A DNA stretch of 64,000 bases from Clostridiaceae bacterium (GTDB lineage Bacteria; Bacillota; Clostridia; Lachnospirales; Lachnospiraceae). This document shows, in pieces, positions 14,254 to 53,020 of the stretch. The notes beneath the pieces were generated by a model, which did no database searches, was not told the DNA's origin, and saw nothing but the letters and a program-made list of their open reading frames with translations. The stretch's first letter is position 1; the number at the start of each line of letters is the position of its first letter. Location: positions 70,340-134,339 of the forward strand of contig CAJSZV010000006.1 of the NCBI GenBank assembly GCA_910574345.1, read 5' to 3'. Both the position numbers and the translations under genes were made by a program.

Positions 14254-15345
14254 TTGGTTTTCTGGCATGAAAAAAGGCTTGACCTCTTTTTTTATATGTA
14301 TCCGGACGGAAGTGAAAAGCCACAGCAGAAGTCAGGATTCAAAACAGAGAGAGAAGCGAATAAGGCAAGAGAGAAGACTATTGCAGAATTATATAACGGT
14401 ACGTTTGTTGTATACGCAAAGGTGAATGTTGCCGATTTTATGTCCTTCTGGCTTGAATAGGAGCTTAAAAAGCGCACGGACAGTCATGAAACCTATTATA
14501 ATTATTGCGGAATAGTAAAGAATCACATTGTTCCCATTCTGGGTAAAAAGAAAATGATGGATGTTACCCGTGGAGACATTCAGAAATTGTTTAATACCAA
14601 GGCAGACTACTCAAGGTCGGTGGCAGAGCAGGTAAAAACAATCATGAATGTCTCTTTTCGTTATGCGGTAACAATCAAAGTGATTCCAAACAGTCCGGTA
14701 GACGGGATAGGGCTTCCCGAAGCAGAAAAGCCGCAGCAGAGAGCAGGATTCAGGACCCGGAATATTGATACACAGAAAACACTGACTATGGAGCAGATCC
14801 AGGTCCTGCTGGAAAAGAGCAAAGATACCCCAATCCATATGCAGGTGATGTTCAATGTGCTTATGGGGCTCCGCAGATCTGAGATCAATGGGGTAAAGTA
14901 TTCGGACGTAGATTATATCAACCATACCTTAAAAGTGGAACGTCAGCTGGGGAGAGTACATAACACAGTAAAAGAGGACTTTGCTCCGAAAACTTTTACG
15001 AAACAGGAAGTAGGATTGAAGACAAAATCCAGTTACAGAGAGATCCCGATTCCTGATTATGTATTTGAGGCGATCTTAAAGGAACGGCAGGTGTATGAGA
15101 AAAATAGAAACCGCAGAACGGAAGAGTTTCAGGATCTGGATTATATCTGTTGTTCTACCTATGGCAGAGCAAGGAGCAAAGGGTTTCATTGCAGGTATTA
15201 TAAGCAGCTTCTTGCCGAAAACGGTTTACCGGATATCCGCTGGCATGACCTGCGCAGCACCTACTGTACGCTTCCGTTAAAAGAGTCTTTTAATCCAAAG
15301 GCAGTATCAAGGCTCATGGGACATGCCAAGGAAATCATAACAATG
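14254..15345 (+). pseudogene. tyrosine integrase pseudogene (element A)
   Basis: Reads in one frame as a close relative of the intact integrase at 49355. DGSEKPQQKSGFKTEREAN corresponds to its N-terminal AP2/arm-binding region. An in-frame amber stop lies at 14458-14460. Then come the core-binding and catalytic parts with LMGLRRSEINGVKYSDVDYI (first Arg) and WHDLRSTYC (His-x-x-Arg). After LMGHAKEIIT the frame runs into unrelated sequence, so the catalytic tyrosine block (IDVYGD in the intact copy) is missing. Both defects make it inactive. Confidence 0.88.
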
Positions 15346-15566
15346 TTAACGATTTGTGGTAGGCTAAAAAAGCTCTTCAGTGCTGTTTCGTCCGTATGGA
15401 ATTACGGAGGTGTACTGGGTTGCAAAAACAGCAAATTGTGAACGGAATTCGTCAAGGACTTTTTTTCCTTCGATTTGAGTAAATGCCATGACGAAAATGA
15501 AAAGTTCCTTGACGAATTTGTGGCATATACGCATCTTTTTTACAATGAATTCTGGAGGTGGTATTT
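15346..15566 (+). promoter_or_regulatory. uvrB leader of element A with palindrome and 21-bp-spaced direct repeats
   Basis: Contains a perfect 13-bp inverted repeat, AATTCGTCAAGGA (15446-15458) with TCCTTGACGAATT (15506-15518), and an internal TGACGAA at 15489. The TGACGAA motifs at 15489 and 15510 are 21 bases apart. The same architecture with different bases recurs at 19335-19407 and 50852-50925. I infer integrase arm-type sites or a conserved leader structure; the segment also carries the RBS of the uvrB fragment. Confidence 0.6.
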
Positions 15567-15887
15567 GTGCAAACTATACAAAAAATGTTCGAACTTCACA
15601 GCGAATACAAGCCCACAGGCGACCAGCCGCAGGCCATAGAAGCCCTTGTAAAAGGGTTCCAGGAAGGCAATCAATTCCAGACCTTACTGGGGGTTACGGG
15701 TTCCGGAAAGACCTTTACCATGGCTAACGTGATCGCTAAGCTTAACAAACCGACTTTGGTAATAGCGCACAATAAGACATTAGCGGCCCAGCTCTATGGT
15801 GAGTTCAAAGAGTATTTTCCGAGTAACGCAGTAGAATATTTTGTCTCCTACTATTACTATAGCTATTTATATACAATATATAGATAA
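15567..15887 (+). pseudogene. uvrB': truncated uvrB 5' end, copy 1
   Basis: GTG 15567 (GGAGG eight bases upstream) opens UvrB sequence [19 protein letters not shown], the Walker A loop [13 protein letters not shown] and [20 protein letters not shown]. It runs up to VEYFVSY, then non-homologous codons to a stop at 15887. UvrB is the damage-verifying helicase of nucleotide excision repair. This fragment stops exactly before the conserved tyrosine beta-hairpin. The DNA is nearly identical to copy 2 but differs from the live gene. It is a stranded element-supplied gene end. Confidence 0.92.
15839..15850 (+). other. attachment core, copy 1
   Basis: TTTTGTCTCCTA marks where uvrB homology ends in copy 1. 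The same 12 bases with G for C occur at the ends of the two other uvrB homology blocks (19729 and 51295). I infer this is the crossover core used by the integrase. Confidence 0.7.
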
Positions 15888-50638: not shown

Positions 50639-50959
50639 AACTAAGATACTGGCATAACTGAATGGCATAAAAAGATATAAAAAAGCACAGAACAAAAGTT
50701 CGATTTTGGTCTGTACTTTTTTTGACTTATGTGTTATAATGAAAAACCAAATGACTGGATAATACTATCTGTACTGGCTGGTGTTATTCAGTGTTGTTTC
50801 GTTTCAAAAATACGGTTTTGTGACCTGCATTTGTGTAATTGCTATTTTAACGCTTATTCGCCAGCTTTGCAAGCCCATTTTACACGAATCGAAAACTGAA
50901 TTACACGAATTTCGGGCGAATAAGCAAACTTTTTTCGGTCACAAATTGGAGGTTTTCAT
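50639..50959 (+). promoter_or_regulatory. right-end arm region and uvrB promoter/leader
   Basis: After the int2 terminator: an extended -10 TGTTATAAT (50732-50740) with TGTACT 17 bases upstream; GTGTTATTCAGTGTTGTTT (50781) and TTTGTGACCTG (50817) echo the left end. GCTTATTCGCC (50852) pairs perfectly with GGCGAATAAGC (50915). TTACACGAAT occurs at 50880 and 50901, 21 bases apart. GGAGG lies before ATG 50960. The element thus supplies uvrB with its promoter and leader. Confidence 0.65.
50687..50723 (+). terminator. intrinsic terminator of int2
   Basis: ACAGAACAAAA and TTTTGGTCTGT form a stem with one mismatch around GTTCGA, followed by ACTTTTTTT. It separates int2 transcription from uvrB. Confidence 0.75.
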
Positions 50960-53020
50960 ATGCCAGATAAGAGAGGAAATTCGCAATCCGCTGACAGCGG
51001 TCAGCTACTTGCTCATAAAAGCAGCCCAAAAGACGGGCATGCTTTTAAATTACAAGCCCCCTACAAGCCCACAGGCGACCAGCCGCAGGCAATCGCAGAG
51101 CTGGTCAAAGGCTTCAAGGAGGGCAACCAATTCCAGACTTTACTAGGGGTTACGGGTTCCGGCAAGACATTTACGATGGCGAATGTCATTCAGGAATTGC
51201 AGAAGCCGACGCTGGTCATCGCCCACAACAAGACGCTTGCGGCGCAGCTCTACGGAGAATTCAAGGAGATGTTCCCTGAGAATGCGGTGGAGTATTTTGT
51301 GTCCTACTACGACTACTACCAACCAGAAGCCTACGTGCCATCCACCGACACCTACATTGAGAAGGATTCCGCCATCAATGACGAGATTGACAAGCTGCGC
51401 CACTCTGCCACGGCGGCCTTGTCGGAGCGGAAGGATGTGGTCATTGTGTCCTCCGTTTCCTGTATCTACGGACTTGGAAGTCCTATTGATTATCAGGAGA
51501 TGGTGATTTCTCTCCGACCTGGCATGGAGAGAGACAGAGACGAAGTGATTCACAAGCTTATTGATATTCAGTACGACAGAAATGATATGGACTTTCACCG
51601 GGGAACCTTCCGGGTGAGGGGAGATGTGGTGGAGATCTTCCCGGCTTATTCAGGGAGTGAGGCATACCGGATTGAGTTCTTTGGAGACGAGGTGGAGCGG
51701 ATTACGGAGATAGACACTTTGACGGGTGAGGCCAAGGCTGAACTTGGACATGTCGCCATATTCCCGGCTTCCCATTATGTGATTCCGAAAGACAAGATGG
51801 AAGAGGCAGCCAATAATATTCTGGCGGAACTGAAAGAGAGAGTGGAATATTTTAAAAGCGAGGACAAGCTTTTGGAGGCTCAGAGAATCGCCGAGAGAAC
51901 GAATTTTGACGTGGAGATGATGCGGGAGACGGGATTTTGTTCCGGCATCGAGAATTACTCCAGGCATCTCACCGGGGGAAAGCCGGGAGAGCCGCCATAC
52001 ACCCTCATTGACTATTTTCCGGAAGACTTTCTCATCATAATTGATGAGTCCCACATTACACTGCCTCAGGTCCGGGGGATGTTTGCAGGCGACCGTTCAA
52101 GGAAGACGACGCTTGTAGAATATGGCTTCCGTCTGCCTTCTGCCCTGGACAACAGGCCCCTGAATTTTGGAGAATTTGAAAGTAAGATTGACCAGATGCT
52201 CTTTGTGTCCGCCACTCCCTCTGAATATGAGGCGAGTCATGAACTTATGCGGACAGAGCAGATTATCCGTCCTACAGGACTTTTGGATCCTGAGATCTCC
52301 GTGCGCCCGGTAGAGGGGCAGATTGATGATCTGGTGGGTGAAGTGAATAGAGAGGTGGAGAAGGGCAGCAAGGTTCTGGTGACTACATTGACGAAACGCA
52401 TGGCTGAAGATTTGACGGATTATATGAGAGAAGTAGGAATCAGAGTGAAATATCTCCATTCGGATATTGATACTCTGGAGCGGGCAGAGATTATCCGGGA
52501 TATGCGTCTGAATGTGTTTGACGTGCTGGTGGGAATCAATCTCCTGAGAGAAGGTCTGGATATTCCTGAGATATCTTTGGTGGCTATACTGGATGCAGAT
52601 AAAGAAGGCTTCCTTCGCTCGGAGACATCTCTGATTCAGACCATCGGCCGCGCTGCCCGCAACGCGGAAGGCCATGTGATTATGTATGCAGATGTGATCA
52701 CAGACTCTATGAGGCGGGCTATTGACGAGACAGAACGAAGGAGAAAGATTCAGCAGCAATATAATGAAGAACATGGGATCACGCCTACCACCATTAAAAA
52801 AGCGGTCCGTGACCTTATCGCCATATCTAAGGCTGCAGAGAGAGATCCCAGGGCTGATGAAAAAGATATAGAGTCCATGGATGCAGGGGAGCTGAATAAG
52901 CTGATGAAAGAGGTGCAGAAGAAAATGCATAAAGCTGCGGCGGAGTTAAACTTTGAGGAGGCCGCCCTGTTAAGAGACAGGATGCTGGAGATAAAGAAAA
53001 TGCTGCTGGAATTAGAATAA
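50960..53020 (+). CDS. uvrB: UvrB, excinuclease ABC subunit B (element/host chimera)
   Basis: A 686-residue complete UvrB: Walker [14 protein letters not shown] (63-75), tyrosine beta-hairpin [19 protein letters not shown]-like [35 protein letters not shown] motif, [19 protein letters not shown], and the C-terminal UVR coiled coil. The N-terminus carries an unusual ~28-residue extension ([16 protein letters not shown]...) not found in copies 1 and 2. The attachment core lies at codons ~112-116, so residues before it are element-encoded and those after are the host's. Works with UvrA/UvrC in nucleotide excision repair. Confidence 0.96.
51295..51306 (+). other. attachment core within intact uvrB (right end of element C)
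   Basis: TTTTGTGTCCTA encodes FVSY immediately before the conserved tyrosine hairpin of UvrB and is identical to the left core at 19729. Confidence 0.75.

Follow-up and report, generated by a model that had tools for sequence, protein, structure and literature searches.

Prophage e14 and phage 21 carry a long stand-in for a portion of a host gene, the 3′ end of icd. Here we describe elements that instead replace the promoter and 5′ end of a gene, the DNA repair gene uvrB. They lie in a 64,000-nucleotide stretch of a genome assigned to the Lachnospiraceae (Clostridiaceae bacterium, assembly GCA_910574345.1, contig CAJSZV010000006.1, positions 70,340 to 134,339), which we call the window; positions below are those of the window, and features lie on the forward (+) strand unless stated otherwise. 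We conclude that these are, very probably, site-specific integrative elements with stacked right ends that insert inside uvrB and supply a substitute front with a predicted promoter, giving rise to a chimeric uvrB. The closest described systems also act on 5′ ends. PMC8409611 describes dusA-specific elements of gamma-proteobacteria such as IMEVchUSA3, which supply a promoter and an N-terminus to a tRNA-modification enzyme, replacing its first ~35 residues, with tandem elements reported at the site. It also describes the integrative and conjugative element (ICE) SXT, which targets the 5′ end of prfC and likewise brings promoter and N-terminus. According to PMC4701971 and PMC5357655, streptococcal ICEs and integrative mobilizable elements (IMEs) target the 5′ ends of ftsK, rbgA, and ebfC and undergo tandem accretion.

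The uvrB elements share with the SXT and dusA types both insertion within the 5′ coding part and restoration of the frame by element DNA. They differ from the dusA elements in replacing 95 to 116 codons of a DNA repair ATPase, P-loop included, in their LexA-type promoter and two overlapping tyrosine recombinases, and in residing in Lachnospiraceae. SXT resembles them in its 5′-end target and supplied front; it differs in gene, host, and integrase, and it is a self-transmissible ICE. The streptococcal elements are like them in having site-specific tyrosine integrases of Firmicutes, in the stacking of related or unrelated elements at one site, and in their decayed neighbors. The principle of a supplied promoter and N-terminus is therefore already known from dusA islands and SXT, and so is the accretion of IMEs. 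Searches of an open-access library brought up no description of uvrB as the target, of a replaced segment of this length, of an SOS-type promoter, or of the int1-int2 pair described below, and no paper on integration inside uvrB with 5′ replacement. The main text of PMC6907783, PMC5357655, and PMC4701971 does not contain uvrB, and that of PMC5357655 does not contain "two tyrosine." In group B Streptococcus, an ICE has been placed between uvrB and secA (PMC12441131), and other papers describe uvrB as cargo (PMC7466150, PMC10732058).

RESULTS

The uvrB 5′ segment occurs three times in the window, with the starts given in an initial annotation of this DNA. Copy 1 (15567 to 15850), the right end of element 1, begins with GTG at 15567. 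Copy 2 (19457 to 19740), the right end of element 2, begins with GTG at 19457 and has a stop codon in the bases directly 3′ of its core. Copy 3 (50960 to 51306), which comes from element 3, begins with ATG at 50960. As the same annotation had claimed, a tyrosine recombinase of one type, here called int2, lies 5′ of each copy (14254 to 15441, ~18633 to 19198, and 49313 to 50638), and all three segments terminate at a common core, TATTTTGTSTCCTA, which is TATTTTGTCTCCTA in copy 1 (15837 to 15850) and TATTTTGTGTCCTA in copies 2 (19727 to 19740) and 3 (51293 to 51306). Copy 3 alone runs on, in frame, into the host part of uvrB 3′ of the core (51307 to 53020). Copies 1 and 2 had been described as nearly identical and copy 3 as different; indeed, copies 1 and 2 are 94% identical over 300 nucleotides (nt), compared to 64% nucleotide identity, ungapped, between copies 3 and 1. 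As protein, copy 3 is 82 to 85% identical to the other two. It also has an N-terminal extension of ~28 residues (50960 to 51040), common to loci L111, L117, L119, L129, and L154, where the uvrB match starts from residue 1, and absent from other loci with a close int2.

The native 5′ end of uvrB had been expected to lie left of the window. We searched the whole assembly (5.6 Mb, 106 contigs, ~97% complete) for it and recovered only the three window copies at E ≤ 0.001, so this expectation was not borne out. There is no fourth copy in the assembly: two further weak matches on contig C9 fall in a 1193-codon frame and do not extend over the uvrB 5′ part.

We then looked for int2 in one genome per species across 84,980 species, using a pattern scan and keeping hits with at least 48% identity to int2. 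This returned at least 68 loci, in records titled mostly as Lachnospiraceae or unclassified Clostridia. A uvrB start lies no more than 1.7 kb downstream of int2 in 55 of the 68 loci listed, with a whole or nearly whole gene in 42 and a 5′ fragment alone in 13. Since the int2-uvrB order recurs to this extent in other records, chance is not a reasonable explanation for it. An int2 homologue 5′ of uvrB, which the initial annotation had proposed to look for, is present in relatives. A second tyrosine recombinase gene, int1, stands directly 5′ of int2 in 35 of the 37 listed loci that hold the int2 N-terminus. At E ≤ 1e-100, 15 of 200 sampled genomes of the family carry int2, its own genome included; among 148 sampled genomes of the class, its own genome was the sole one. 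Plasmids and phages gave one distant record each, with 26 to 28% identity, and no match was confirmed in viral contigs.

Among solved structures, 6emy, 6emz, and 6en0, which we take to be Tn1549 Int, are among the nearest to int2 by sequence (E ~1e-8), a weak likeness over the catalytic part. The Tn916/Tn1549 family is characterized by low-specificity insertion into AT-rich DNA, a trait at odds with an int2 family found at uvrB in 55 of the 68 listed loci. Low site specificity of the Tn916 integrase is stated in PMC4701971.

Two loci have unusual uvrB genes. In L135 (11731 to 13550), about codons 114 to 169 are missing from uvrB directly after the core, possibly the result of an imprecise event or an assembly fault. 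In L116 (3318 to 5580), ~280 bases interrupt the uvrB 5′ part, between codons 62 and 57 (query numbering).

Comparison of uvrB genes with window copy 3 revealed a step in identity at the core. In 18 loci, codons 37 to 110 are 91.0 to 98.6% identical in DNA, and codons 116 to 200 of the same genes are 68 to 82% identical (the comparison listed 90 loci, in which some places appear more than once). For the 14 of these 18 loci that we inspected base by base, counting in the 3′ direction from the start of the core puts the first mismatch at base 9 to 30; single differences also occur just left of the core, as within a lineage. The 5′ proteins in the 18 loci are 97 to 100% identical despite up to 9% difference in DNA. 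The changes are mostly silent, and the uvrB copy of the element looks selected for function. The reverse pattern is found in genus relatives: the 5′ segment of L079 has 76.6% identity to the window, and its codons 116 to 200 have 86.3%.

To compare inheritance of the two gene parts, we correlated distances among 32 occupied loci, selected from 73 candidates because an int2 stretch of 330 amino acids or more adjoins a near-full uvrB. The comparison set consisted of 18 loci in which int2 was not detected; two of them, L024 and L027, have little upstream sequence. In the occupied loci, int2 distance correlated with that of the uvrB 5′ part (r = 0.81) and hardly with that of the 3′ part (r = 0.12), and the two parts of uvrB were nearly uncoupled from each other (r = 0.18). 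In the loci without detected int2, the 5′ and 3′ parts varied together (r = 0.81). Pairs with a near 5′ part and a distant 3′ part numbered 54 of 496 in the occupied set and 0 in the other. The uvrB front of gut-type bacteria travels between genera with the element. Site-specific integration into uvrB by several lineages, each bringing an N-terminal segment, had been the simplest reading of the initial annotation, and it is supported by the identity step, the co-inheritance of int2 with the 5′ part, and two further observations: a comparison of empty and occupied sites and the recurrence of left ends.

In the genus relative G002, uvrB is not interrupted at the core and goes on until the contig stops; a search of G002 for int2 at E ≤ 1e-60 gave no match. 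Over 2.1 kb that include the uvrB 5′ part, G011 matches G002, and it departs at the core into an element-like left end. In G014, a displaced 5′ end lies beside upstream genes common to G002, and a full uvrB stands behind int1-int2 on another contig. A FeoAB-type gene is located 5′ of the native uvrB in G014 and G002. Its best matches in G000 have 45 to 55% identity; one of them is feoB just downstream of uvrB, and none lies 5′ of the window copies, showing that the left flank there differs from that of G014 and G002.

Orphan 5′ fragments lead into recurring left-end sequences, with 31 distinct junctions. The left end of element 3, which follows copy 2, recurs in nine other loci, including Eubacterium plexicaudatum ASF492 (L111) and Bacterium 1XD42-76 (L196). 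The left end of element 2, after copy 1, resembles that in Schaedlerella arabinosiphila (L176), where 38 kb separate an orphan 5′ fragment from uvrB and a stretch inside is 90% identical to window positions 15932 to 16877. When we searched 14 genomes with the 5′ segment, 10 had two or more matches and 6 had three or more, with pieces at contig edges counted. Several matches in most genomes indicate that stacking is common. The presumed outermost orphans carry int2 remnants or an element-type promoter on their 5′ side and no native start in this genome, Schaedlerella, E. plexicaudatum, Bacterium 1XD42-76, Bacterium D16-56, and G015. A full uvrB is kept beside a truncated int2 in L126, L129, L149, L161, and L162. 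We infer that the right end of an element may become the lasting front of a host uvrB.

Between int2 and uvrB copy 3 lies a promoter-like sequence with a LexA-type box, absent from the initial annotation. The predicted promoter (50690 to 50740) comprises the box GAACAAAAGTTC (50690 to 50701), a −35 hexamer TGTACT (50712 to 50717), a 17-nt spacer, and a −10 hexamer TATAAT (50735 to 50740). It is followed by a leader of 219 nt with inverted repeats (50741 to 50959), likewise new to the annotation, and a ribosome site GGAGG at 50948 to 50952. The box GAACNNNNGTTY is present in 19 of 26 dereplicated leaders, compared to a mean of 0.65 and a maximum of 4 in 200 shuffles; four of the remaining seven have it with one mismatch. 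In this genome, three boxes of this kind, including GAACAAAAGTTT, precede lexA, and GAACAAATGTTC precedes recA. The chimeric uvrB may be read as a candidate for SOS control. The promoter segment of the element aligns with five native uvrB promoters with scores of 22 to 36 (shuffle maxima, 15 to 20); these five were chosen by eye from 24 listed, and others, including those of G002 and G011, have no visible segment. Most simply, an ancestor would have acquired the promoter of a host uvrB along with the 5′ coding part. Since the segment is missing from other native promoters, such capture is supported for some hosts only. We also considered the box as a mere terminator of int2 and rejected this, because the segment is also found in native promoters that have no int2.

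At 219 nt, the leader in the window is longer than that of the native G028 gene, which has 45 nt. An alignment of 19 of the 26 dereplicated leaders showed conserved inverted repeats whose inner bases covary; the left arm, ATTCGT, belonged to the search pattern and is invariant by construction, whereas the right arm did not belong to it. We also considered the leader as an RNA attenuator. Single folds of five leaders gave z values of −0.95 to −4.91, and an alignment fold left one short stem at −6.4 kcal/mol, with all 40 column shuffles at 0. An Rfam scan detected nothing in the leader; in the window it detected a group II intron, tRNA, and pemK RNA. We prefer to regard the repeats as putative arm-type DNA sites for the recombinases, although they may have an RNA role.

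Element 3 begins directly 3′ of the copy 2 core and ends with the last base of the copy 3 core (19741 to 51306); its left-end sequence is common to nine other loci and its right end to many. A conserved set at the right end encodes a sigma-70 region 4 protein (45957 to 46565), a MazF/PemK-type protein (47242 to 47838), the excisionase-like HTH_17 protein Xis (47922 to 48140), and the tyrosine recombinases Int1 (48127 to 49353; PF00589), whose gene overlaps both xis and int2, and Int2, which is intact (49313 to 50638; PF00589, PF14659, PF22022). This set is common to other loci, as is a ParA gene near the left end. The assignment of xis is weak (27.4 bits against a cutoff of 27; TIGR01764, 20.8 bits against 28.8). 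In element 3, the ParA-type ATPase is truncated (22940 to 23380; PF13614, profile positions 1 to 125 of 177), and its relatives sit near the left ends of other elements. Beside it is a MobA-type relaxase on the reverse (−) strand (23342 to 24703; PF03432, below NCBIfam cutoffs), which has few relatives in the loci fetched and may not belong to the backbone. Redox genes are also present.

Element 3 contains several other features. A DinG/YoaA-like helicase gene and an AlbA/Schlafen-domain gene lie between the left end and the truncated parA (19976 to 22811); without relatives in the fetched loci, they look like cargo at a variable spot. Two related open reading frames (ORFs), at 34262 to 35140 and 36015 to 36770, are 75 to 84% identical in stretches and have no Pfam match. 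Group II intron domains (RF02005, 38549 to 38782) are followed by an intron reverse transcriptase/maturase gene (38945 to 40333), the whole spanning 38549 to 40333. An Rfam pemK RNA (RF02913) is located 5′ of the MazF/PemK-type gene, the two together spanning 46887 to 47838.

Element 2 (15851 to 19740) is decayed and consists of a Schaedlerella-like left end, a gene at 16033 to 16989, transposase-like fragments, an int2 remnant (18633 to 19198, start approximate), and uvrB copy 2. Of element 1, the right end alone remains, with a putative left border near 14250. Its recombinase remnant (14254 to 15441) has an in-frame TAG, lacks the N-terminus, and has an altered C-terminus; it is 63% identical to int2 over residues 45 to 391, with PF00589 in the open part, 14554 to 15438. 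Farther left (5228 to 13419), SMI1/KNR4 (SUKH) domain genes and a Sel1-repeat gene resemble an immunity-gene cluster. The initial annotation held that an element of a different lineage landed last. Elements 2 and 3 do differ in left-end type, which bears out the first part of this claim. The second part does not follow from order alone, and the order would be identical had element 2 inserted into element 3 at its left junction. Because element 3 is intact, in contrast to the decayed elements 1 and 2, it is likely to have landed last.

DISCUSSION

These data suggest a mechanism by which uvrB acquires a new front. The conserved uvrB codons (EYFVSYY) would serve as the attachment site, and the xis-int1-int2 module would recombine within or beside TATTTTGTSTCCTA, a role for int1 and int2 that we deduce from their sequence and position. 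Integration would sever the native front from uvrB, and the right end of the element would bring the first 95 to 116 codons in frame, including the P-loop, preceded by a uvrB-type promoter that has a LexA-type box and by a leader and ribosome site. A further element at the same core would leave an orphan 5′ fragment, and the newest, uvrB-proximal element would supply the front.

Several points weigh against this reading. No uvrB lies within 1.7 kb in 13 of the 68 listed int2 loci. Seven of these have less than 1.3 kb of sequence downstream of int2 before the contig ends; in the remaining six, uvrB follows 2.5 to 4.5 kb on in L131, L159, and L166, weak pieces are found in L165, and L102 and L150 have none. 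The int2 and uvrB 3′ distances are not fully independent (r = 0.12, permutation P = 0.018). G011 displays the displaced 5′ end only, and a chimeric uvrB was not located in it. The ORFs scanned, in element 3 and, for Schaedlerella, 7 of 36, did not include a full conjugation set, and nested cargo may account for the element 3 relaxase. Finally, we infer rather than observe present activity of the elements, whether excision or transfer.

The elements are probably mobilizable, which is the best label and not a proven one. Like IMEs, they have an integrase and an excisionase-like gene (the latter weakly assigned) at one end and a defined attachment core. A PF03432 relaxase is present in element 3 and in the Schaedlerella element, which also encodes ParA, a ParB-like protein (below the curated cutoff), and a coupling-protein-like ATPase. 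It is quite unlikely that they are prophages or phage satellites instead. DUF932, a domain with a link to phages, and a YqaJ-type gene are found in the Schaedlerella element, and both occur in phages too. However, the scan of viral contigs gave no int2 relative, a single phage record reached E ≤ 1e-30 with 26% identity, and Pfam scans of 27 element 3 ORFs and 7 of 36 Schaedlerella ORFs detected no virion gene.

Another explanation concerns the orphan copies alone, which could be retained because they encode a short N-terminal peptide of UvrB that has a role of its own, for example, in interfering with UvrB. Copy 2 would fit, with an open frame, a promoter box at 19202, a ribosome site, and a stop directly after the core, and orphan fragments are frequently open for ~90 to 150 codons. 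Copy 1, however, has no promoter box and a truncated recombinase upstream, and orphans are expected from the geometry of insertion without any selection; we consider such a peptide highly improbable. Chromosomal duplication, or homologous recombination between uvrB genes with the integrases as bystanders, is possible in principle between homologous copies but next to impossible here, because the step in identity recurs at one core across many genera, the 5′ segment follows int2 in its variation (r = 0.81) but scarcely follows the 3′ part of its own gene (r = 0.18), and orphan fragments lead into recurring element left ends.

We can also imagine, tentatively and with more doubt than belief, that the elements captured an SOS-controlled uvrB front and hold recombination arm sites between a LexA-regulated promoter and the start codon, coupling DNA damage, uvrB induction, and integrase access. 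If this is true, uvrB would be both a landing site and a damage-sensing exit switch, and in some lineages the native front would be gone for good, leaving a core repair gene to rely on a front of mobile origin.

With site-specific elements in uvrB, a core repair gene appears to be a recurrent mosaic: the promoter, start, and P-loop segment are mobile between genera, and the rest stays with the host. Such mosaicism would mislead uvrB phylogeny and annotation. Orphan uvrB 5′ fragments provide a simple marker to find and delimit these elements, and the loci offer a natural series of UvrB chimeras. They also make a link between the SOS response and element mobility testable in Lachnospiraceae.

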